From an uncultured Lachnospiraceae bacterium (GTDB lineage Bacteria > Bacillota_A > Clostridia > Lachnospirales > Lachnospiraceae): 38,477 nt of DNA. Below are positions 2,821 through 18,359 of this stretch, one piece after another. The DNA lies in the NCBI GenBank assembly GCA_905207905.1, contig CAJLNC010000018.1, forward strand, positions 1 to 38,477. Direction: 5' to 3'. A program made the position numbers and the translations under genes. A model generated the notes under the pieces. That model saw only the letters and a list, made by a program, of their open reading frames with translations. It did not search any database and was not told the DNA's origin. Within the stretch, counting starts at the first letter, position 1; every line of letters begins with the position of its first letter.

Positions 2821-3405
2821 TCAGGAATAGGTTTTGATAATATCTTCGGCCATGGAACGCTTGGAACAGCAGCGGTCCATGGCCTGTTTTTCTATATAGC
2901 GGTGGGCCTCCGGCTCACTCATGTGGAGCTCACTGATCAGCAGCCATTTGGCCCGGTTGACGGTCCGGATCTCAGCCATTTTTTCCTCAATGGATAAAGT
3001 TTTTTTCTCAAACTGGCGCAGCCGTTCCCTGGCGGTCTCCATCCAGCTTAGAGCCATTAAAAGGGTGGGTTTTGCAAGGGGCTTCGGCAGAGCGAAGGCG
3101 CCATGCAAACGGAGTTTTTCCTGAATTTCCAGGTAAAAGTCGCTCTTTGCCAGAAGCAGGACGATGGTTTCTCTGGAAGCACAGGTGTCAATGGCAAAGC
3201 GAATTCCTGGATCATCGGGAAGAGGGGCATTGATAATGACAAAATCAAAGGTGCGTTCCGCAGCGGCTCTTCTCGCGGCGCTGATACTAGAGACCGTACA
3301 CAGGTTGTAGCGGGAAGGCTCCGGAAGAAGTCCGAAGAAGGCAGAGGAAAAGTGTTCGGAGCCGGAGACCAGTAAAATACTGTAGCTTTGTTCCTGCAGA
3401 CTCAT
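2821..3405 (-). CDS. ANTAR-domain antitermination regulator with degenerate receiver
   Basis: A 194-residue protein, last gene of the glutamate synthase/glutamine synthetase operon. ANTAR proteins bind small RNA hairpins with six-base loops in nascent mRNA and stop a terminator from forming. Residues about 1-120 have a receiver-like alpha/beta pattern, followed by a helix or coiled coil (about 122-145). The ANTAR domain is about 140-194, with the conserved pattern RAKWLLISELHMSEPEAH and the KQAMD segment. The receiver is unusual: the N-terminal acidic pair is replaced by Ser-Gly-Ser (14-16) and the phospho-acceptor position is Asn59 (FVIIN), although the Lys of LPKP remains. It is therefore probably not controlled by phosphorylation, resembling AmiR in this respect. 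No kinase gene lies nearby. AAGGGAGGAC supports the start. Its likely targets are the two leader hairpins at 8445-8462 and 8549-8568. Confidence 0.85.
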   Translation of the reverse strand: MSLQEQSYSILLVSGSEHFSSAFFGLLPEPSRYNLCTVSSISAARRAAAERTFDFVIINAPLPDDPGIRFAIDTCASRETIVLLLAKSDFYLEIQEKLRLHGAFALPKPLAKPTLLMALSWMETARERLRQFEKKTLSIEEKMAEIRTVNRAKWLLISELHMSEPEAHRYIEKQAMDRCCSKRSMAEDIIKTYS

Positions 3406-3498: not shown

Positions 3499-4794
3499 TC
3501 AATAAGGAATGGAGGAATCGGATACGCAGGGATCTGTCCCGGCAGGTTCCTCTGTGGTGTACAGCTTTAGAATCGCTTCCGGCAGACAGCTCCGAATAAA
3601 GCTGCTGTTCGCTGCCAGTTTTCTGGCGGCTGTCAGATTCGCCGGAAGTTTTTGAAAGGGCGCCAGGATGCGCTCATCTGCCTGAAACAGATTGAAATCC
3701 GCAGGGGCAGGAGGTTTCAGCTGTTTTTGAATCCCATAAAGCCCGGCGTAGATCATCAGGGCGAAGGACAGATAAGGATTGGCGGAGGGATCCGGGGAAC
3801 GCAGTTCTGCCCGACGGTATTCCCCCGCAGCAGCAGGAATCCGAATCAACTGGGAGCGGTTTTCATGGGACCAGGAGACGTAGGCTGGGGCCTTATTTTG
3901 TCCAAAACGCAGGTAGGAGCTTTGGGAAGGATTGAAAAACAGAGTCATCTCCCTAACTTTTTCCAGGATTCCTGCAACCATAGGGGGAAGTAGAGTTTCA
4001 TCGCTCTGAAGGCTGCCTGGGAGAACGCCTGGCTCCTTCCGGAGACTTTTCACAGAGAGGTTGATGTGAAAGCCGTTGCCGGGCTGCTCCTTTAGCGGCT
4101 TCGGCCCAAAATCAGCGGCCAGTCCGTTGCGCAGAGCCACAGCCTTTACCACGGTCTGAAAGGTCATGGCATTGTCTGCCGCTGCCAGGGGATCGGAATA
4201 GCGAAAATCTATTTCGTTTTGTCCGGGGCCCTCCTCATGGTGGGAACTTTCCGGCAGAATTCCCATCTGTTCCAGGGTAAGACAGATCTCTCTGCGGATG
4301 TTTTCCCCTCTGTCTTCCGGTGCAATATCCATGTAGCCGGCATGGTCATAGGGAATTTTAGTAGGCTCCCCCATCTCGTCCAGCTTAAACAGGTAGAATT
4401 CCTGTTCTGCTCCAAAGAAAAATTGATATCCGGCTTCTTGGGCTGTTTCCACAGCCCTTGCTAAAATAGCCCTGGAGTCGCATGCAAAGCGGCGGCCGTC
4501 GGGATAAAAAATATTGCAGAACATGCGTACTACCCGGCCATGTTCCGGCCGCCAAGGCAGGGGCATCAGTGTGTTCGTATCCGGGTACAGCAGAAGATCG
4601 GAGTGGGTTTCATCCCCAAAGCCTGCAATGGCAGAAGCGTCAATGGCAATTCCGCTGGAAAAGGCTCGCGGCAGTTCCTGGGGCATAATGGAGATGTTTT
4701 TCTGTCGTCCGAACACATCGCAGAAGGCAAGGCGGATGAATTTCACGTCTTCCTCTTCCAGATACTGCAGTACCTCCTGTCTAGAATATTTCAT
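3499..4794 (-). CDS. glnA: Glutamine synthetase, type I
   Basis: A 431-residue cytoplasmic enzyme that makes glutamine from glutamate, ammonia and ATP. It is slightly shorter than the usual 440-470. The N-terminal beta-grasp segment reads FIRLAFCDVFGRQKNISI. Catalytic-domain motifs in order are FFGAEQEFYLF (metal ligands), GPGQNEIDFRY, NGFHINLSV (the metal/ATP His region) and ENRSQLIRIP plus RAELRSPDPSANPYLS (substrate/ATP Arg and the family signature). It lies 23 bp after the GXGXG glutamate synthase piece and is transcribed with it. A second, unrelated-type glutamine synthetase (type III) is encoded on the other strand from the shared promoter region. A weak GCAGG ribosome site precedes the ATG. 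Confidence 0.93.
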   Translation of the reverse strand: MKYSRQEVLQYLEEEDVKFIRLAFCDVFGRQKNISIMPQELPRAFSSGIAIDASAIAGFGDETHSDLLLYPDTNTLMPLPWRPEHGRVVRMFCNIFYPDGRRFACDSRAILARAVETAQEAGYQFFFGAEQEFYLFKLDEMGEPTKIPYDHAGYMDIAPEDRGENIRREICLTLEQMGILPESSHHEEGPGQNEIDFRYSDPLAAADNAMTFQTVVKAVALRNGLAADFGPKPLKEQPGNGFHINLSVKSLRKEPGVLPGSLQSDETLLPPMVAGILEKVREMTLFFNPSQSSYLRFGQNKAPAYVSWSHENRSQLIRIPAAAGEYRRAELRSPDPSANPYLSFALMIYAGLYGIQKQLKPPAPADFNLFQADERILAPFQKLPANLTAARKLAANSSFIRSCLPEAILKLYTTEEPAGTDPCVSDSSIPY

Positions 4795-4817: not shown

Positions 4818-5540
4818 TTAATTGGCAACGTACATCTGTTTATAAGGATTCTGAGTGTTGGGGGTCACCAGAGTAAAGGGGGAATGGAAAATCTCTTTTT
4901 CATCCAAGCCAAAGATCTGACAGTATTCTGTAAGGAAGGCAGAAATCTGCATCAGGTCTTCCTGACTGGCCGGTGCTGCAGTCACCTGATCCGGAAAGCG
5001 GATCCCCTGGCAGCTTCCTCTCAGGAACAATTTCCCACCGTGCATGCCAGTACAGGGAAAATTTCCGGTGAGAGCTTTGCCATCCGTCTCCAGGCCCAGA
5101 ACGATAATTATGCCGCCGGCCTGGTATTCCCCAAGAAAGCTGCCTGCCCGCCCTCCAATGATGATCACAGGAACTTTGTCCTGGTAAGCTTTCATGTGGA
5201 TGCCGGTCCGGTATCCCGCATTTCCTCTTACATAGAGCTTTCCGCCCCTCATGGCATATCCGGCCGCGTCCCCCACGCTGCCATGGATCACAATCTTTCC
5301 CGCATTCATGGTATCTCCCACTGCATCCTGGGCGTTGCCTTTCACCGTCAAAAGAGAATCATTCAAGTAGGCACCCAGGGCATTTCCGGTGATTCCAAGA
5401 AGTGTAATCTGCTTTCCCGACATACCGGCTGCGAGGAACCGCTGGCCTTGGCAGCCGGTGACGGTACAGGTGCCGCCGGACTGGCGAAGCTGTTGATTTA
5501 ACGTTTTGGAATCCAAATTGGCAGCATGAATTATTTTCAT
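4818..5540 (-). CDS. Glutamate synthase GXGXG-domain subunit (GltB C-terminal domain-like)
   Basis: A 240-residue protein matching the C-terminal right-handed beta-helix domain of the glutamate synthase large subunit, here a separate polypeptide. The repeating Gly-rich segments (GNALGAYLNDSLLTVKGNAQD, then GKIVIHGSVGDAAGYAM, then GGKLYVRGNAGYRTG) give the typical coils. Later coils contain GGRAGSFLGEY and GMHGGKLFLRG. In full-length GltB this domain is structural, bridging the amidotransferase and FMN domains. With the two upstream genes it reconstitutes a split GltB. A gap of 113 bp separates it from the FMN-domain gene. AAGGATGTG precedes the ATG. Confidence 0.88.
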   Translation of the reverse strand: MKIIHAANLDSKTLNQQLRQSGGTCTVTGCQGQRFLAAGMSGKQITLLGITGNALGAYLNDSLLTVKGNAQDAVGDTMNAGKIVIHGSVGDAAGYAMRGGKLYVRGNAGYRTGIHMKAYQDKVPVIIIGGRAGSFLGEYQAGGIIIVLGLETDGKALTGNFPCTGMHGGKLFLRGSCQGIRFPDQVTAAPASQEDLMQISAFLTEYCQIFGLDEKEIFHSPFTLVTPNTQNPYKQMYVAN

Positions 5541-5653: not shown

Positions 5654-7159
5654 TTACTCTCCTGCATGGGCGATCCCAAGAATCTTCAGTTCTTTTTCCG
5701 TAAGACCAATTCCCCGCAGCATCAGCCGGTTGCCCCGGAGGGATTCAATGGAGTTGATCCCCATGCCCCCCATCATCTCTTTAATTTCCCGATTCCAGGC
5801 AGTCATGAGATTCACCAGATGTTCCTGGCCCTGCTGAGGATCCAGACGTTTCACCAGCTCCGGGCGCTGGGTAGCGATTCCCCAGTTGCAGATACCGCTC
5901 TGACAGGTGCGGCACAGATGACAGCCGAGAGCCAGAAGGGCGGCAGTGGCTACATAGCAGGCATCTGCACCCAGAGCAATGGCCTTTACTACATCGGAGG
6001 AGCTGCGGATGCTTCCGCCGGCGATCAGGGACACCTGATTGCGGATGCCTTCCTCCCGCAGCCGCTGGTCAACCGCAGCCAAAGCCAGTTCAAGAGGGAT
6101 TCCCACATTGTCCCGAATCCTGGTGGGAGCAGCACCGGTGCCACCCCGAAAACCGTCCAGGGCAATGATATCCGCGCCGCTTCTGGCAATGCCGCTGGCG
6201 ATGGCGGCAATATTGTGGACAGCAGCCACCTTGACAATTACCGGCTTTTTATATTCAGTTGCTTCCTTAAGGGAGAAGACCAGCTGCCTTAAGTCTTCAA
6301 TGGAATAGATATCGTGGTGGGGGGCCGGGGAGATGGCATCTGCGCCCTCCGGGATCATTCTTGTGCGGGATACGTCTCCCACAATCTTGGATCCTGGGAG
6401 GTGGCCGCCGATCCCCGGTTTGGCTCCCTGGCCCATCTTAATCTCAATGGCCGCGCCTGCCTCTAAATAGGCCGGATGGACACCAAAACGGCCGGAGGCC
6501 ACCTGAACAATGGTGTTGTCTCCATAGCAGTAAAAATCTTCATGAAGCCCTCCTTCTCCGGTATTGTAGAAGGTGCCAAGCTGACTGGCAGCGGACGCCA
6601 GGGCTTTGTGGGCATTGTAACTGATGGATCCGTAGCTCATGGCGGAGAAAAGTATGGGCATGGAGAGCTCCAGCTGAGGAGGAAGCTGGCAGTCCAGTGT
6701 TCCATCTGCCTTTCTTTGGATGCGTTCCGGCTTTTTGCCAAGATAGACTCTGGTCTCCATAGGCTCCCTTAATGGGTCAATGGGGGGATTGGTGACCTGG
6801 GAGGCATTGATCAGGATGTGATCCCAGTAAACAGGCAGAGGATTGGGATTGCCCATGGAGGATAAAAGGATTCCTCCGCTGGCAGCCTGTTTGTAGATCT
6901 CCCGCACCGTATCGTTGGACCAGTTTTGATTTTCCCGTATGGTACAGCTGCTCTTTACAATTTTCAGAGCCCGTGAAGGACAAAAAGCCACGCAGCGCTG
7001 ACAGTTGACACATTTTGCCTCATCGCTGACCAACACCTTCTTTTCTTTCTGATAGAGATGCACTCCATTGGCGCACTGCCTTTCACAGGTACCGCAGCCA
7101 ATGCAGCGGTCAGCGTTCCAGATCACTTCAAATTCAGGATAAAATAGTTCCATGGACAT
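5654..7159 (-). CDS. Glutamate synthase FMN domain with N-terminal 4Fe-4S clusters
   Basis: A 501-residue protein holding the central catalytic domain of glutamate synthase, which uses FMN to reduce the 2-iminoglutarate made from ammonia and 2-oxoglutarate. Residues about 10-70 carry two ferredoxin-type motifs, CIGCGTCERQC and CVNCQRCVAFC. The (beta/alpha)8 FMN domain follows, with PILFSAMSYGSIS, the GEGGL loop, KPGIGGHLPGSKI, ALDGFRGGTGAAP and IAGGSIRSSSDV. Near the C terminus CHLCRTCQSGIC matches the family's 3Fe-4S cluster site. This is the archaeal/clostridial arrangement. Its ATG overlaps the stop of the amidotransferase gene (TAATG), so the two are translationally coupled. No NAD(P)H-oxidising GltD subunit lies in the window, so ferredoxin is a plausible electron donor. 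Confidence 0.92.
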   Translation of the reverse strand: MSMELFYPEFEVIWNADRCIGCGTCERQCANGVHLYQKEKKVLVSDEAKCVNCQRCVAFCPSRALKIVKSSCTIRENQNWSNDTVREIYKQAASGGILLSSMGNPNPLPVYWDHILINASQVTNPPIDPLREPMETRVYLGKKPERIQRKADGTLDCQLPPQLELSMPILFSAMSYGSISYNAHKALASAASQLGTFYNTGEGGLHEDFYCYGDNTIVQVASGRFGVHPAYLEAGAAIEIKMGQGAKPGIGGHLPGSKIVGDVSRTRMIPEGADAISPAPHHDIYSIEDLRQLVFSLKEATEYKKPVIVKVAAVHNIAAIASGIARSGADIIALDGFRGGTGAAPTRIRDNVGIPLELALAAVDQRLREEGIRNQVSLIAGGSIRSSSDVVKAIALGADACYVATAALLALGCHLCRTCQSGICNWGIATQRPELVKRLDPQQGQEHLVNLMTAWNREIKEMMGGMGINSIESLRGNRLMLRGIGLTEKELKILGIAHAGE

Positions 7160-8253
7160 TAGTATGCTCCTTCCTTTACGCGAATGATGACCGGTTCCCC
7201 TCCGGAGGGCGCCCAGATATTTTCTGCATCAGGCTCCAGGGCCCGGATGGCGGCCTCTTCACTGCCAATGAAGACCCGGTCTTCTTTTTCTCCGATTACC
7301 ATCGACCGCAGTTTCAGACGATCATTCAACGCCATCAAACCTCCGTCGAATCCCAGAACAATGGAGAAGGGGCCTGTAATCAGCAGGCTGGGGAAAAGGG
7401 TGCGCAGATAGGTGGCAGTCTGGCTGCCCTTGGGATCCTTCATAGCTTCAATGGTGCTCCAGAAGGGGGCTGCCACTACCGTGGCTGCCTCGGTCAGAGA
7501 CAGGCCCTGGATCCGCAGCAGATAGTCCATAATATAGGTGATCACTTCTGTATCTGTCTGCAGGGTGCATTTGTAGCCGAACATTTCCATGAAGCGGCGG
7601 TTTGCATCGTAGGAAGAGATTTCTCCGTTATGTACAATAGAATAATCCAGCAGTGTAAAGGGATGGGCACCACCCCACCAGCCCGGTGTGTTGGTGGGAT
7701 ACCGCCCATGGGCAGTCCAGGAGTATCCGCTGTACTCTTCCAGCCGATAGAACTGCCCCACATCCTCCGGGTAGCCCACTGCTTTAAAGGTTCCCATATT
7801 TTTTCCGCTGGAAAAAACGTAGGCTCCCTTCATTTTTGCATTGATCTGGATCACCGTTTTTACTACAAACTCTTTTTCATCCACATGCATTTCCCGACAG
7901 ACAGATTTCAGGGGAGAAACAAAGTATCTCCAGATAATGGGTTCTCCTGTGATGGAGGGAAGCTTTCGGGTGGGAATGATCTCAGACTGGACAATCTCAA
8001 ACCGTTCTTTTAAAAAGGCTTCGCAGTCCTTTCTGGTGCTGCGGGTATCAAAAAAAAGATGCAGCGCATAAAAATCTTTATAATCCGGATAGATTCCGTA
8101 TCCGGCAAATCCTCCTCCCAGCCCGTTGGAACGCTCATGCATCGGTTTCATAGCTGCGGCAATGCGATCTCCCGGCATTCGTTTTCCCTCCCTGGAGATC
8201 ACGGCGGCAATGGCGCAGCCGGAAGGGATTCGTATTTGACCTTCCATTTTCAT
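7159..8253 (-). CDS. Glutamate synthase class II glutamine amidotransferase subunit
   Basis: A 364-residue protein matching the N-terminal glutaminase domain of glutamate synthase, which frees ammonia from glutamine for the FMN subunit. I place the start at 8253 because GGAGGA (8261-8266) sits seven bases upstream. A longer in-frame ATG at 8364 has no ribosome site and would read an Arg-rich stretch created by leader hairpins. The catalytic Cys is internal (Cys13, in IPSGCAIAAV), so a short propeptide must be removed to expose it, as is known for GltB. Other class II features are the HERSNGLGGGFAGYGIYP segment, the AHGRYPTNTPGW motif and HNGEISSYDANRRF. First gene of the leftward operon. Confidence 0.9.
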   Translation of the reverse strand: MKMEGQIRIPSGCAIAAVISREGKRMPGDRIAAAMKPMHERSNGLGGGFAGYGIYPDYKDFYALHLFFDTRSTRKDCEAFLKERFEIVQSEIIPTRKLPSITGEPIIWRYFVSPLKSVCREMHVDEKEFVVKTVIQINAKMKGAYVFSSGKNMGTFKAVGYPEDVGQFYRLEEYSGYSWTAHGRYPTNTPGWWGGAHPFTLLDYSIVHNGEISSYDANRRFMEMFGYKCTLQTDTEVITYIMDYLLRIQGLSLTEAATVVAAPFWSTIEAMKDPKGSQTATYLRTLFPSLLITGPFSIVLGFDGGLMALNDRLKLRSMVIGEKEDRVFIGSEEAAIRALEPDAENIWAPSGGEPVIIRVKEGAY

Positions 8254-8283
8254 AAAAAGCTCCTCCTTTTCCGGTAAATCAAA

Positions 8284-8331
8284 GAAGTCTGCGGACGGAC
8301 TTCTCCGCCTGCGGCGGGTCGCTTCAGCGAC
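8284..8331 (-). other. Three back-to-back hairpins in the glutamate synthase leader
   Basis: In transcript order these are GTCGC-TGAA-GCGAC (8331-8318), CCGCC-GCA-GGCGG (8317-8305) and GAAGTC-(8)-GACTTC (8303-8284). All stems are perfect and there is at most one base between hairpins. They lie downstream of the attenuator and end 17 bases before the ribosome site. No U-run follows. Their tight packing suggests a selected RNA structure, possibly controlling translation or RNA stability. The function is unknown. Confidence 0.55.
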
Positions 8332-8380
8332 ATATTTCCTTTCCAGCGCAATGCGGTTCTGCAAAATATTTTTGTTTCAT
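8324..8380 (-). other. Possible 18-codon upstream ORF in the glutamate synthase leader
   Basis: An ATG at 8380 opens a short frame (MKQKYFAEPHCAGKEICR) ending inside the first of the three leader hairpins. It is preceded by CAGGAGC at a rather long distance (about 11 bases). It could be a leader peptide whose translation opens the hairpins, or chance. Confidence 0.2.
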
Positions 8381-8402
8381 AGAAAGAAAGCTCCTGTGAA
8401 AC

Positions 8403-8456
8403 AAAAAAGACGTCCAAATTAAGGACAGTTTTCCTGCTCTTAAAATGAACGCCTTT
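8403..8456 (-). terminator. Leader terminator (attenuator) of the glutamate synthase operon
   Basis: Minus strand 8456 to 8406 folds into a stem of 23 positions, 20 of them paired, with a GAAAA loop, and is followed by six T (8408-8403). It lies between the promoter and the first gene, so it must be overcome for expression. This makes it an attenuator. Its left arm overlaps the ANTAR-type hairpin at 8445-8462, and the two cannot form together. Confidence 0.8.
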
Positions 8457-8462
8457 GCTCAT
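8445..8462 (-). promoter_or_regulatory. Candidate ANTAR-binding hairpin, leftward leader
   Basis: On the minus strand AUGAGC and GUUCAU pair (6 bp, one G-U) around the six-base loop AAAGGC. The loop has A at position 1 and G at position 4, the known ANTAR recognition pattern. The hairpin begins almost at the predicted transcript start. The rightward leader holds a matching hairpin with loop AAUGGC and different but still paired stem bases. Only one such hairpin is seen here, whereas characterised ANTAR targets have two. Confidence 0.6.
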
Positions 8463-8469
8463 GCCTTCT

Positions 8470-8498
8470 TTTATACATCCAGGCGGGGCATTTGTCAA
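8470..8498 (-). promoter_or_regulatory. Promoter of the leftward glutamate synthase operon
   Basis: On the minus strand TTGACA (8498-8493) and TATAAA (8475-8470) are 17 bp apart. Its -35 lies 14 bp from the -35 of the divergent promoter, and the two -35 boxes form a perfect 9-bp inverted repeat. Transcripts would begin near 8463. Confidence 0.85.
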
Positions 8499-8512
8499 CT
8501 GAAAAAAAGGGG

Positions 8513-8540
8513 TTGACAAAAAAAATGTCAGGTGTATAAT
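8513..8540 (+). promoter_or_regulatory. Promoter of the rightward glnN-carB operon
   Basis: TTGACA (8513-8518) and TATAAT (8535-8540) are 16 bp apart, a near-perfect sigma-A promoter. Transcripts would begin near 8547, directly before the leader hairpin. Confidence 0.88.
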
Positions 8541-8548
8541 ATCGGGCA

Positions 8549-8568
8549 TGAAGGCAATGGCGTCTTTA
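8549..8568 (+). promoter_or_regulatory. Candidate ANTAR-binding hairpin, rightward leader
   Basis: UGAAGGC and GUCUUUA form a 7-bp stem (two G-U) closing the six-base loop AAUGGC (8556-8561), with A1 and G4 as in ANTAR targets. It uses the left arm of the terminator at 8551-8603, so the two structures exclude each other. The sequence GCAA(U/A)GGCGU is shared with the leftward leader, and the outer stem pairs differ but remain complementary. Confidence 0.6.
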
Positions 8569-8603
8569 ATGTGTTACAACGTTAAAGGCGCCGTTGCCTT
8601 TTT
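8551..8603 (+). terminator. Leader terminator (attenuator) of the glnN-carB operon
   Basis: Bases 8551-8572 and 8579-8600 pair without interruption: 22 bp including three G-U pairs, closed by the loop GUUACA and followed by TTTTT (8599-8603). It stands 83 bases before glnN and just after the promoter, so it acts as an attenuator for the five-gene operon. Confidence 0.85.
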
Positions 8604-8685: not shown

Positions 8686-10782
8686 ATGAAAAAGGTTTCA
8701 GATTATTTTGGATGTCTGGTGTTTGATGACCGGGTGATGAAGGGGAATCTTCCGGAGGAAGTTTACCGCTCCTTAAGAAAGACCATCGACGAGGGAGCCA
8801 AGCTGGATCTTGGAGTAGCCAATGCGGTGGCATCCGCTATGCGGGACTGGGCAGTCTCTAAAGGAGCGACCCACTATACCCACTGGTTTCAGCCCCTTAC
8901 CGGGGTGACGGCAGAAAAGCATGACAGTTTTATCTCACCCTCCCCGGACGGGGGCGTGATCATGGAGTTTTCCGGGAAGGAACTAATCAAGGGGGAGCCG
9001 GATGCGTCATCCTTCCCTTCCGGAGGGCTGCGGGCTACCTTTGAGGCCAGAGGCTACACAGCCTGGGATCCCACCTCTTATGCATTTATCAAGGGAAAGA
9101 CATTGTGCATTCCCACTGCCTTCTGTTCCTATGGCGGAGAGGCTCTGGATAAAAAGACGCCTCTGCTGCGCTCCATGGAGGCGCTGAATAAGCAGGCGCT
9201 GCGGATCCTGGCCCTGTTTGGCAATGATCAGGTGAAATATGTGAGAACCTCAGTGGGGCCGGAGCAGGAATACTTCCTTATTACAAAGGAGATGTATGAC
9301 CAGAGAAGGGATCTTCGCTTCACGGGAAGAACTTTGTTTGGAGCCAAGCCTCCCAAAGGGCAGGAGATGGATGACCATTATTTCGGAGTGATCAAGCCCA
9401 GGGTGGCAGCCTATATGGAGGATTTGAACGAGGAACTGTGGAAGTTGGGAATTCTGGCAAAAACAGAGCACAACGAGGTGGCTCCTGCTCAGCATGAGCT
9501 GGCGCCTATCTATACTACTACCAACATTGCAACCGATCAAAATCAGCTTACCATGGAGGTGATGCAGAAGGTGGCTGCCAGACATGGGTTGGTGTGCCTG
9601 CTCCATGAAAAACCCTTTGCCGGAGTTAATGGAAGCGGAAAGCACAACAACTGGTCGCTCTCCACTGATACAGGGGTGAACCTGCTCTCACCGGGAGAAA
9701 CGCCCTATGAGAACGCGCAGTTTCTTCTGTTTCTCTGTGCGGTGATCAAGGCTGTGGATGATTATCAGGATCTTCTCCGTCTGTCCGTAGCGACTGCGGG
9801 AAATGACCATCGGCTGGGAGCCAATGAGGCGCCGCCTGCTGTGGTATCGGTGTTCCTGGGAGATGAACTGAATGCAGTGTTGGAGGCAATAGAGAAGGAT
9901 ACGCCCTATGCGGGGACGGAGAAGATGCAGATGAAACTGGGAGTCAATGTGCTGCCGAAGTTTAACCGGGATGCTACGGACCGAAACCGCACCTCGCCCT
10001 TTGCTTTCACAGGAAATAAGTTTGAATTTCGGATGCTGGGGTCTTCCAACAGCATTGCCTGCGCCAATATGATGCTGAACAGTGCAGTGGCAGAGAGCTT
10101 GAAAATCTATGCAGACCGTCTGGAGCAGGCGGAAGATTTTGAGGAGACTCTGCATGAAATGATCCAGAAGACGATCCGGGATCATAAACGGATCATTTTT
10201 AACGGAAACGGTTACGACGAAAGCTGGATCAGGGAGGCCACGGAGCAGAGAGGGCTTTTAAACTACCGAACTACACCGGACTGCATGCCGCATCTGCTGG
10301 ATGAAAAAAATGTGAGGATGCTTACCTCCCACAAGGTGTTCTCTGAGGCAGAGCTGAAATCCAGGTGTGAGATCATGCTGGATAATTACTGCAAGACGGT
10401 GGTGATCGAGGCCAATACCATGGTGGAGATGGCCAGAACCCAGATTGCTCCGGCAGTGGAGTCCTATGTCCTGGAATTGGCAAAGACAGCGGCAGCCAAA
10501 AAGGCCGTGGATGCTTTTTATGCCTGCGGCTACGAGACCGGGCTGATCAAGCGGCTGTCTGTGCTGACAGAACAGATCGGAGTAAGGAGCGACGAACTGG
10601 AGAAGGCTGTGCTGAAGCTTGGGGACGTGATGGATATCCTCTCCCAGGCCAATGCAATCCGGGATACGGTCCTTGGAAAGATGGGAGAGCTGCGGCTTGC
10701 CTGTGATGAGGCGGAGACCCTCACAGCTAAGAAATACTGGCCCTTCCCCACTTACGGAGATCTGCTGTTTAGTGTGAGATAA
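8686..10782 (+). CDS. glnN: Glutamine synthetase, type III
   Basis: A 698-residue glutamine synthetase of the long type III class found in Bacteroides, cyanobacteria and clostridia. The ATG at 8686 follows AGGAGAGG (8673-8680). The upstream ATG at 8653 has no ribosome site. Recognisable segments are the type III N-terminal [16 protein letters not shown], then [20 protein letters not shown], the ATP-grasp-like core [10 protein letters not shown] (metal Glu), [27 protein letters not shown] (family signature with His and Asn) and [20 protein letters not shown] (substrate/ATP Arg). It heads an operon of glutamine-using enzymes. Together with glnA on the other strand, the locus encodes two non-homologous-size glutamine synthetases under one control region. 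Confidence 0.95.
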
Positions 10783-10825: not shown

Positions 10826-15140
<4,315 letters not shown>

Positions 15141-15163
<23 letters not shown>

Positions 15164-18100
15164 AAAGATCTTAGTCATTGGCTCCGGGCCTATCGTTATT
15201 GGACAGGCTGCGGAGTTTGATTATGCAGGCACTCAGGCCTGTCTGGCCTTGAAGGAGGAGGGCTATGAGGTGATCCTGTGTAATTCCAATCCGGCAACGA
15301 TTATGACAGACCCCTCTGTGGCAGATAAGGTGTATATGGAGCCTTTGACTCTGGAATATATGGCAAAGGTGATCCGCTATGAACGTCCGGATGCCCTTCT
15401 TCCAGGAATCGGAGGTCAGACCGGATTGAATCTGGCGATGGAACTGGAGAAAAAGGGCGTTCTGAAGGAATGCCGGACAGAGCTTCTTGGTACCAGGAGC
15501 AGCAGCATTGAGCGGGCGGAGGATCGCCGGCTTTTCAAAGAGCTGTGTGAAAAATTAGGGGAACCGGTGCTGCCCTCACGAATTGCAGGAACTCTGCAGG
15601 AGGGGATGGAGGCAGCAGGGGAAATCGGTTATCCAGTGGTAGTGCGTCCTGCCTACACGTTGGGAGGAACCGGAGGAGGATTTGCAGATCGGGAGGAAGA
15701 ATTGCTGCCTTTGATCAAAAATGGCCTCGCTCTGTCACCGGTAAGCCAGGTGCTGATCGAGAAGAGCATTAAAGGGTATAAAGAAATTGAATATGAGGTG
15801 ATGCGGGATAGAAATGACACGGCCATCACGATCTGCAATATGGAGAATCTGGATCCGGTAGGCATTCACACCGGAGACTCTATCGTAGTGTGCCCGTCCC
15901 AGACGCTCACCAACAAGGAATATCAGATGCTTCGGGACAGCGCTCTGAAAATCATACGTGCGCTGGAGATCGAAGGGGGCTGCAATGTGCAGTTTGCCCT
16001 GGATCCCGGCTCTTTTCAGTACTACGTGATTGAGGTGAATCCAAGAGTGTCCCGTTCTTCCGCCCTGGCCTCCAAGGCCAGCGGCTATCCCATTGCGCGG
16101 GTATCGGCCAAGATCGGCATCGGCATGACGCTGGATGAGATACCGTTAGCCAACACTCCGGCCTGCTTTGAGCCGGCACTGGACTATGTGGTGACCAAGA
16201 TGCCCCGGTTCCCCTTTGATAAATTTACAGAGGCCAGCCGGAGACTGGGTACACAGATGAAAGCTACGGGAGAGGTAATGGGCATCGGCCGGACCTTTGA
16301 GGAGAGCCTGGAAAAATCCATCCGCTCTCTGGAGACTGGGTACTATCATCTGCACAGCTCCAAATTTGACGGAATGGAAACCAAAGAACTGTCAGCGTAC
16401 CTTCAGGAGGGAACAGATGACCGCATTTACGGAGCGGCAGAGCTGCTGCGGAGGGGCTGCAGCGTGGAAGAGATCTGGAAGATTACAGCCATCGACCGTT
16501 TTTTTCTGCGGAAACTGAAGAACATTACAGAAGAGGAGCAAAGGCTGAAAGAGCATCCCGGAAGCCCAGAACATTTGCTGGAAGCAAAAAGGATGGGATT
16601 TTCTGACCGGGCGGTGGCAGACTGCTGGAACTGGAACGAAGAGCAGGTATTCTTGCTCAGATGCCGGAAAAAAATAGTTCCTGTCTATAAGATGATTGAT
16701 TCCTGCGCCTCTGAGTTTGACAGCTACATTCCTTATTTTTACAGCACCTATGAGGAAGAGAATGAATCCCGGATTTCCTCAAGAAAAAAAGTGGTGGTTC
16801 TGGGGTCAGGGCCGATTCGCATCGGCCAGGGAGTGGAGTTTGACTATTCTACCGTCCATGCGGTAAAGACCATCCGGGAGGCAGGGTATGAGGCGATTAT
16901 CATTAACAATAATCCGGAGACTGTGTCCACTGACTATACCTGTGCGGACAAGCTGTATTTTGAACCTCTCTGTGTGGAAGATGTGATGAATGTGATCCGC
17001 ATGGAAAATCCTGTGGGGGTTATGGTTACTCTGGGAGGCCAGACTGCGATCAATCTGGCGGAACCCTTAAGCCGTCTGGGTGTAAACCTGATGGGTACAG
17101 ACTGTGAGGCCATTGAGCGGGCTGAAAACAGGGAGGCTTTCGAAACGCTGCTTTTGTCCCTTGGCATTCCACAGCCCAGAGGACGGGCGGTGACTACCCT
17201 GGAGGAAGGGCTGAAGGCAGCAGAAGAGATCGGCTATCCGGTGCTGGTGCGTCCCAGTTTTGTGTTGGGAGGCAGAGCCATGGAAATTGTGGCCAGGGAG
17301 GAGCATCTGCGCCACTACCTGAAGACAGCAGTGGAGATTTCAGAGGAGAAGCCGGTGCTGGTGGATCAATACATCCGGGGAAGGGAAGTGGAGGTGGACG
17401 CCATCTGCGATGGAACCCAGGTGTTTGTCCCGGGGATCATGGAGCTGGTAGAGCGGACCGGAATCCATTCCGGAGATTCCATCAGCGTCTATCCGCCTTA
17501 TGATCTTTCTCAAAAGGTAAAGGAGAAGATTCTCTCCTACACAAAGCGTCTGGGACTGGGAATTGGCATTGTGGGACTTTTTAATATTCAGTTTATTGTG
17601 GATGATAAGGATCAGGTCTCCGTCATTGAGGTGAATCCCAGATCCTCCCGGACGGTGCCTTTCCTCTCCAAAGCCACAGGCTGCAGCCTGGCAGACATTG
17701 CCGCAAGAGTAATGCTGGGGATACCTCTGAAGGAACAGGGGATTTTGGAAGAATGCCTGCCAGAAACTTCCCGGTATTATGTAAAAGCGCCTGCCTTTTC
17801 TTTCTCCAAGCTAAAGGGAATGGATGCCTACCTGTCTCCGGAAATGAAGTCCACCGGGGAAGCCATCGGATATGATGAAAAGCTGCATCGGGCGATGTAT
17901 AAGGCCATGATTGCCTCTGGCATGAAGCTTCAGAATTACGGAACTGTGGTGGTGACGCTGGCAGATGAGGATAAAGAAGAAGCGCTGCCCCTGATCCGGC
18001 GATTCTATCAGATGGGCTTTAACATTGAGGCAACCATAGGAACCGCTCAGTTTCTCAAGAAAAATGGGATTCGTACAAGACTGCTTCATAAGCTCAGCCA

Positions 18101-18359
18101 GGGAAGTCAGGAAATCTTAGATTCCATCCGCGCCGGATACGTGAGCTATGTGATTAATACCAGGGCCATTCTTTCCGGCATCCATTACGGGGATGGAGCC
18201 GCCATCCGCCGTACGGCCAGCCAGAACAATGTGACCATGTTCACTTCTCTGGATACCGTGCGGGTATTGCTGGAGGTGCTGGAGGAAGTGACTATCGGCG
18301 TATCTCCCCTGGACACTTTTCAGACAAATACAGCACTATCTGAAAGATTTACCGCATAA
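15141..18359 (+). CDS. carB: Carbamoyl-phosphate synthase large subunit
   Basis: A 1072-residue synthetase producing carbamoyl phosphate for pyrimidines and arginine. It has the expected internal duplication. The first half opens with [22 protein letters not shown] and carries the carboxyphosphate ATP-grasp ([20 protein letters not shown]). The second half repeats this with [20 protein letters not shown] and [20 protein letters not shown]. The C-terminal MGS-like allosteric domain covers about the last 130 residues. GGAGGA (15126-15131), inside the end of carA, supports the start. It is the last gene of the glnN operon, and no terminator follows before the alanine symporter. Confidence 0.96.

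Follow-up and report, generated by a model that had tools for sequence, protein, structure and literature searches.

Single-hexaloop transcription attenuators as candidate ANTAR targets at two divergent glutamine operons of a Lachnospiraceae bacterium

Control of nitrogen genes by ANTAR proteins, glutamate synthase genes included, was predicted in 2012 from searches for dual hairpins (PMC3369931), and the published searches for ANTAR-binding RNAs required two stem-loops (PMC3369931, PMC8164766), joined in one case by a linker of 2–25 nt (PMC8164766). The paper on EutV and its RNA redefined the minimal ANTAR motif as one hexaloop and called for bioinformatic work (PMC8934654). An intergenic region of an uncultured Lachnospiraceae bacterium raises the question of whether one hexaloop can serve in place of two. 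The 38,477-nt stretch analysed here (contig CAJLNC010000018.1 of assembly GCA_905207905.1), hereafter the window, holds two divergent glutamine-related operons, one of which ends with a gene for an ANTAR protein. A first-pass annotation made from the sequence alone had placed a "bidirectional" ANTAR-type attenuator between them, with one hexaloop hairpin per leader, and had suspected a single-hairpin variant of the ANTAR target.

The two leaders and their operons

The two promoters stand back to back and diverge, and each lies a few bases ahead of a hexaloop hairpin whose sequence can instead pair as the left arm in a long intrinsic terminator (Table 1). This arrangement, already proposed in the annotation, was borne out by folding: the plus-strand terminator has 23 pairs in its main stem (about −42.6 kcal/mol, z −8.8) and the minus-strand terminator 20 pairs (about −25.9 kcal/mol, z −4.5), with 0 of 200 shuffles as good in either case. 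The hairpins with the six-base loops AAAGGC and AAUGGC also folded as described, with A and G at loop positions 1 and 4 (the A1/G4 rule of ANTAR targets). The energy of the lone hexaloop was unremarkable against shuffles (z −1.2 and −1.65) and was not used as evidence. In the predicted folds, the minus leader reached −25.1 kcal/mol when free and −16.7 with the hexaloop forced, and the plus leader −42.7 and −16.6, the terminator being favoured over the hexaloop state by about 8 and 26 kcal/mol, respectively. By these predictions the hexaloop and the terminator are mutually exclusive, and the energies favour the terminator as the final form; given the large stability gap, the hexaloop would win only when formed first and held. 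The exclusion of an intrinsic terminator by the hairpin, a property of ANTAR target RNAs, is thus found in both the predicted folds and the covariation described below. The region 8403..8603 is not the one bidirectional element that had been suggested; it consists of two separate attenuators behind two promoters.

The leftward operon encodes the subunits of a split glutamate synthase, a GlnA-like protein of class I and the ANTAR protein, and the rightward operon encodes GSIII, AsnB, PyrG, CarA and CarB, with a Na:alanine-type symporter gene next; the gene contents agree with those given in the annotation. The open frame of CarA shares about 120 nt with the end of PyrG (within 13946–14070), and the true start is probably near 14070, because the Pfam CPSase domain starts only at residue 45. 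About 150 nt (8250–8402, minus strand) separate the glt terminator from the likely glt start codon, and this segment contains strong additional predicted hairpins and an open frame of 18 codons preceded by a separate AGGAG. The distance from the hexaloop to the matched glt start is mostly 26–117 nt in relatives, and given this shorter spacing the segment may be an insertion; 20-mers sampled from it had no second copy anywhere in the window.

Table 1. Features of the two leaders and operons, with positions in the window
Feature	Position	Strand	Remarks
ANTAR protein, pseudo-receiver domain (Asn at phospho-acceptor position)	2824..3405	-	PF03861, E 6.6e-16
GlnA-like protein (class I GS), catalytic flap Glu to Lys; proposed glutamine sensor	3502..4794	-	
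GXGXG-domain subunit, split glutamate synthase	4821..5540	-	
Glutamate synthase central subunit with ferredoxin domains	5657..7159	-	
Glutamate synthase class-II amidotransferase subunit	7162..8250	-	likely start ATG 8250 behind AGGAGG
Intrinsic terminator of glt leader, overlaps hexaloop	8403..8458	-	folding, covariation
Hexaloop (antiterminator) hairpin AUGAGC-AAAGGC-GUUCAU	8445..8462	-	loop 8456-8451; at predicted transcription start
Promoter, leftward (glt-glnA-ANTAR) operon	8470..8498	-	TTGACA-17-TATAAA; -35 8498-8493, -10 8475-8470
Promoter, rightward (GSIII-asnB-pyrG-carAB) operon	8513..8540	+	TTGACA-16-TATAAT; -35 8513-8518, -10 8535-8540
Hexaloop hairpin GAAGGC-AAUGGC-GUCUUU	8550..8567	+	loop AATGGC 8556-8561
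Intrinsic terminator of GSIII leader, overlaps hexaloop	8551..8603	+	folding, covariation
Type III glutamine synthetase (GSIII)	8686..10779	+	
Asparagine synthase (AsnB)	10826..12403	+	
CTP synthase (PyrG)	12445..14067	+	
CarA, carbamoyl-phosphate synthase small subunit	13946..15160	+	open frame; true start probably further in
CarB, carbamoyl-phosphate synthase large subunit	15141..18356	+	

The hexaloop in related loci

Contigs of GTDB genomes were searched with an alignment of 15 ANTAR homologs, and 375 relatives were confirmed; the best 80 loci were kept with at most 10 kb on each side, giving 81 sequences together with the window. A loop-blind scan of these, which took no account of the letters in the loop, called every hairpin with a stem of 6 bp or more, six loop bases and an overlapping terminator. 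A1/G4 appeared in 67 of the 74 hexaloops found, a count over related loci whose hits are not independent, and A1/G4 hexaloops were present in 48 of the 81 sequences. The control on reversed sequences gave 10 matches, with A1/G4 in none of the 8 shown. Loops of five, seven and eight bases gave 25, 1 and 5 matches, the A1/G4 class being absent among those listed. Of 40 matches with four-base loops, 13 began with A and ended with G, chiefly as AAGG or ATGG; these may be the hexaloop motif read in an inner register. Lack of the hexaloops in related genomes had been named in the annotation as an outcome that would speak against its proposal. The hairpins proved to be conserved: among operon starts with enough upstream sequence, an attenuator lay within 450 nt upstream of 47 of 56 for glt/glnA and 44 of 50 for GSIII.

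The spacing between promoter and hairpin, measured with a relaxed scan that required C-A..G..-G, bears on whether a leader carries one loop or two. The hairpin started 4–9 nt past the -10 box in 41 of 41 glt leaders, one per leader, and 7–10 nt past it in 30 of 65 GSIII units, the other 35 comprising 29 without a promoter call and 6 with a promoter further away. With the hairpin at the predicted transcription start there is no transcribed room for an upstream P1 hairpin, and instead of P1 and P2 joined by a short linker a single hairpin was found in all 41 glt leaders, in line with the variant that had been suspected. This spacing argues against the leaders being conventional dual-hairpin ANTAR targets in which the second hairpin has been missed, either behind an upstream start or as a weak hairpin inside the terminator, as might be expected from published searches that defined the targets by dual hairpins (PMC3369931, PMC8164766). 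A further downstream A1/G4 hairpin of at least 4 bp did occur in 18 of 114 attenuators versus 3.1 expected: six were the second attenuator of a tandem, five belonged to related glt/glnA leaders and seven were scattered. In the glt/glnA leaders of L005, L008, L012, L018 and L027, a weak 4-bp AGAGCA or AGAGTA hairpin with A1/G4 follows just after the first hexaloop. Over the 114 attenuators the second loop had no conserved shared form, and both window leaders stand outside the 18; an overlooked second hairpin is unlikely. We class the RNA as a naturally occurring variant of the ANTAR target with one hexaloop in place of two, and not as a member of the dual-hairpin family.

At least two complete attenuators stood within 600 nt in 20 of 44 GSIII leaders, at spacings of 63–204 nt that stayed within 98 nt in 17 of the 20, and the last copy lacked a promoter call in 16 of the 20. 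Loci with tandem attenuators ahead of GSIII include L026, L029, L030, L034, L039, L046, L069 and L070. Such tandems would suit a reading in which paired attenuators in series are the functional form and a leader with a single copy, like both of those in the window, is a reduced version. The in vivo action of EutV requires both hairpins (PMC3369931, PMC8934654); by analogy one loop might not suffice, and the multiple attenuators could act as a pair. Against this stand all 41 glt leaders and the 24 of 44 GSIII leaders, the window's included, that carry one attenuator within 600 nt, some of the 24 having another further upstream, ahead of a GDH-type gene. EutV antitermination, moreover, was abolished when 20 nt were added to the hairpin spacing (PMC8934654), and a functional pair in series is considered quite improbable.

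The conservation figures were taken from the 50 distinct leaders of the loop-blind set; in alignment A2, which holds 80 of 105 selected leaders (25 were omitted to thin near-copies), invariance is partly by construction, the relaxed scan having required C-A..G..-G and the leader selection loops starting AA. In the 50 leaders, the left-arm C, the A at loop positions 1 and 2, G4 and the following G and U were each present in 49–50, with A1 and G4 together in 49 and the single exception being an alternative register; all four letters occur at loop position 3, and positions 5 and 6 are variable. Opposite the fixed letters, the right arm is free to vary, with an entropy of 0.5–1.7 bits versus 0–0.14 on the left. 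A plain terminator would not fix just one arm. A count of the fixed core GCAAWGGCGT was set aside, as it also picks up probable chance matches in coding sequence and antisense readings of palindromic terminators.

In alignment A2, 89% of the cells of the hexaloop stem were paired (shuffled mean 73%) and stem covariation was 0.514, versus 0.248 in shuffled alignments and at most 0.162 with slid partners; each value was reached by 0 of 500 shuffles. Two of the five measures failed to stand out: 6 of 8 stem pairs were altered on both sides, a count equalled in 58 of 500 shuffles, and the number of further pair types was reached by 149 of 500. The covariation largely reflects a division into two kinds of stem, glt-type (UGAGC/GUUCA) and GSIII-type (AAGGC/GUCUU), and with the compensations mostly in two subfamilies the independent events are therefore few. 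Both sides had changed in 11 of the 14 pairs predicted for the terminator. The G-U wobble beside the closing pair was kept in 79 of 80 stems, with A-U in the remaining one, and its retention fits RNA and not a DNA palindrome or operator. An operator at +1 for a DNA-binding regulator, with the terminators incidental, would likewise put the motif at the start site and let its arms covary. It would not explain the wobble, the promoterless occurrence of the motif as a second attenuator, or its position inside a terminator with only the left arm conserved, and is very unlikely.

The ANTAR protein and the spread of the RNA

The gene at the end of the leftward operon, identified as an ANTAR gene in the annotation, indeed encodes the ANTAR domain, with 58.3 bits against a Pfam cut-off of 27.3. 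The receiver match stays under its Pfam cut-off (20.4 versus 30.2). Asn59 aligns with the phospho-acceptor Asp of EutV, and Asn59 and Ser14 were present in 120 of the 120 best homologs listed; the position of Ser14 is normally acidic in receivers, as part of the acidic pair at the domain start. Lacking the phospho-acceptor Asp, the protein falls outside the kinase-phosphorylated REC-ANTAR type of EutV, and judged by these residues it carries a pseudo-receiver, as reported for AmiR (PMC8934654). His168, Met176 and Arg147 align with EutV Tyr164, Met172 and Lys143, which contact RNA (PMC8934654), and are invariant across the 120 best homologs; AmiR likewise has His at the Tyr164 position. The position of EutV Lys147 holds Lys or Arg in 119 of these 120, and for EutV Arg142, which contacts RNA too, the aligned ANTAR protein offers no clear equivalent. 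The predicted structure is of low confidence (pLDDT 67.1, pTM 0.49), and its best Foldseek matches (Rv1626, EutV and AmiR, TM about 0.3) serve only as agreement with the sequence match.

A covariance-model search had been proposed in the annotation. At E ≤ 0.01 the model of the hexaloop attenuator, R1, gave 3–6 matches in each of 11 genomes, numbers that overstate the sites, some matches being both strands of one palindromic terminator. The downstream genes identified encode GSIII, glutamate synthase, PyrG, AsnB, an ammonium transporter (amtB), PurF-type and PurC-type proteins and a dehydrogenase of the Glu/Leu/Phe/Val type that is probably GDH; genes for PurA and a class-I amidotransferase were seen downstream at contig edges. 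The identified targets are nitrogen or purine/pyrimidine genes, mostly glutamine-linked.

In an order sample of 294 genomes (R1 at E ≤ 1e-4, ANTAR ortholog at E ≤ 1e-60), R1 matched in 10 of 13 genomes with an ANTAR ortholog and in 7 of 281 others (Fisher p 4.6e-12; this and the following p-values treat the genomes, which are related, as independent). A laxer scan gave matches in 13 of 13 ortholog genomes, the added three at 1.1e-4 to 2.9e-4. A class sample of 291 genomes (R1 at E ≤ 5e-4) gave 12 of 18 ANTAR-ortholog genomes versus 10 of 273 others (Fisher p 1.6e-11), and five of the six missing genomes had weak matches in a laxer scan (E 5.8e-4 to 0.022), four of them with a readable hexaloop. 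Seeds of the model overlapped with the order sample in G001, G003 and G194 (3 of 13) and with the class sample in G001, G006, G011, G538 and G566 (5 of 18). With the identified seed genomes removed, the counts were 7 of 10 versus 7 of 281 (p 1.2e-8) and 7 of 13 versus 10 of 273 (p 9.5e-7), a removal that covers identified source genomes, further overlap being possible via loci not fetched. In both samples, the single-hexaloop motif thus occurred preferentially in genomes with the cognate ANTAR protein.

An R1 match without a 1e-60 ortholog was found in 16 distinct genomes, 14 of which hold some ANTAR protein, a count confined to these 16 genomes; in one of these 14, G508, the ANTAR ortholog is split over two contigs. 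In G087 and G345 the RNA matched with no ANTAR domain detectable, the GlnA-like gene of G087 running into the contig end, and G456 has an ANTAR ortholog with no RNA match, laxer scan included; these three genomes are counterpoints to recognition of the RNA by the ANTAR protein. The A1 profile matched 73 of 294 order genomes at 1e-25. Of two matches in G232, L119 resembles coding sequence and is probably due to chance, and L125 has both promoter and hexaloop. In L142 (G318) and L144 (G314) a hexaloop motif lies directly 3' of the ANTAR gene, apparently ahead of the next gene. G081 (L151 on G081:C5, and G081:C7) carries GSIII and glt hexaloops together with a different ANTAR protein, whose domain lies on another contig about 0.5 kb past the end of a GlnA match; pairing of GlnA with ANTAR thus seems not to be confined to the close clade.

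Constitutive leader terminators or a protein-free small-molecule (glutamine) riboswitch would accord with energies that favour the terminator and with the existence of glutamine-responsive RNAs elsewhere, but can hardly be reconciled with fixed letters that are the ANTAR signature plus closing pairs, with an RNA that tracks the ANTAR gene across genomes, or with Rfam, where no family matched the window at the gathering threshold and the eight permissive matches in this region were all far below cut-offs and none relevant.

On the basis of the observed RNA, its conservation, its two exclusive predicted folds and its co-occurrence with the ANTAR gene, we consider it probable, at roughly 85%, that both operons are under transcription attenuators recognised by the ANTAR protein of the leftward operon, one hexaloop sufficing without an upstream P1. 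RNA polymerase would start at the hairpin, and its first product would be a stem of about 6–8 bp with a hexaloop of consensus C-AANGNN-G and then U. An active ANTAR protein holding the hexaloop would lock away the left arm of the terminator and transcription would continue; with the hexaloop unheld, the far more stable terminator would form and transcription would end. Antitermination would take place under nitrogen limitation, as is reported for NitR, and the signal would enter through a partner protein, for which the GlnA-like protein is a candidate, and not through phosphorylation. One ANTAR protein would serve both operons and, in relatives, further nitrogen or glutamine-using genes, forming a single nitrogen regulon with positive feedback on ANTAR.

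The candidate GlnA-like partner and known ANTAR systems

A GlnA-like gene precedes the ANTAR gene in 70 of 70 loci with room for it, with a median of 40 nt between matched ends. The flap glutamate of glutamine synthetase, the catalytic Glu327 in the Salmonella enzyme, is replaced by Lys in all 73 GlnA-like proteins read and also in the best 120 of 7998 database relatives, and the other active-site positions checked are kept in those 73 (Glu220 in 70 of 73). With 331.4 bits against the curated cut-off of 429.15 for TIGR00653, and with the flap Glu lost, the protein lies outside type I glutamine synthetase as delimited by these two features. In the order sample, the flap position of the 30 best matches is Lys in 19 (56–72% identity), Arg in 1, Glu in 8 (53–56%) and unreadable in 2, the Glu-type proteins being the more distant ones; ANTAR adjoins GlnA in 29, and in the remaining one the contig ends there. 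Upstream of GlnA, an AAAGGC hexaloop was present in 3 of 18 loci inspected (L194, Lys-type; L202 and L204, Glu-type with promoter); many of the remaining loci have a different gene immediately ahead of GlnA. The pair of GlnA and ANTAR, joined in some genomes by the RNA, occurs with and without the flap glutamate and has persisted after its loss.

Retention of the substrate and metal residues together with loss of the flap glutamate suggests a sensor. In the simplest reading, the GlnA-like protein would be a partner that reads glutamine for ANTAR, its main role in this clade; the obvious alternative is an amine ligase with another substrate. More specifically, a retired glutamine synthetase may act as a direct-contact glutamine sensor that switches the pseudo-receiver ANTAR protein on and off, with the single hexaloop executing the response of the regulon and the Glu-flap pairs representing an ancestral enzyme-and-sensor state, a proposal that we put forward tentatively, at somewhat less than even odds.

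In Bacillus, feedback-inhibited glutamine synthetase controls TnrA and GlnR and thereby serves as a glutamine sensor. The output there is DNA binding, whereas here it would be RNA antitermination, and the homolog here is without the catalytic residue; GS, TnrA and GlnK are touched on in PMC6316151. Regulation of an ANTAR protein by a partner sensor is described for AmiC-AmiR (PMC8934654), where AmiR is also a pseudo-receiver protein, and for NasS-NasT (PMC3795266), whereas the candidate for this role in the window is homologous to glutamine synthetase. The link of an ANTAR protein to GS/GOGAT genes is shared with NitR of Clostridium saccharobutylicum, which is reported to induce GS/GOGAT by antitermination on nitrogen limitation (Stutz et al. 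2007, as cited in PMC6316151), and in C. thermocellum an ANTAR gene lies in the GS-GOGAT cluster and its expression follows the cluster (PMC4676874). In contrast to NitR, whose RNA target is absent from the cited descriptions, the window has GSIII as a divergent target and a GlnA-like protein with a changed flap.

With the dual-hairpin targets of EutV (eut), NasR (nasF) and AmiR (amiE), as presented in PMC3369931, the leaders share an A1/G4 hexaloop overlapping an intrinsic terminator, an ANTAR protein in the genome and nitrogen-metabolism targets including glutamate synthase. They differ from those targets in having one hexaloop, placed at the predicted transcription start, in the additional fixation of A at loop position 2, the C-G closing pair and the next U, and in sometimes having two full attenuators in series. 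One hexaloop, as here, was proposed on structural grounds as the ANTAR site of EutX and some mycobacterial RNAs (PMC8934654); the discussion of that paper presents no single-loop terminator attenuators, which it leaves as future work, and holds both hairpins to be required for eut antitermination. A literature search covering mostly open-access papers found no report of single-hexaloop attenuators at these genes (some of the leaders may be among the hits of PMC3369931) and none of a glutamine synthetase homolog as an ANTAR partner. ANTAR control of GS/GOGAT is already known from NitR; this RNA architecture and the sensor idea were not found in print. The pseudo-receiver, the altered GlnA beside ANTAR, the tandem GSIII attenuators in relatives and the GDH-type, amtB and purine targets go beyond the first-pass annotation.

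How far single-hexaloop action extends and why eut needs both hairpins are left open in PMC8934654, and searches requiring two stem-loops (PMC3369931, PMC8164766) would tend to miss such RNAs. The leaders described here form a natural set of more than 100 single-loop attenuators (105 selected) at core nitrogen genes, tied to one ANTAR clade and hosted by Lachnospiraceae and other Clostridia, many from gut samples. With this set the single-hexaloop question becomes directly testable, and the attenuators provide a probable explanation for the control of glutamine supply in their hosts. The GlnA-like protein is a candidate for evolution from enzyme to regulator; if the sensor reading is true, an enzyme homolog would read glutamine and one RNA hexaloop would act across the nitrogen regulon.
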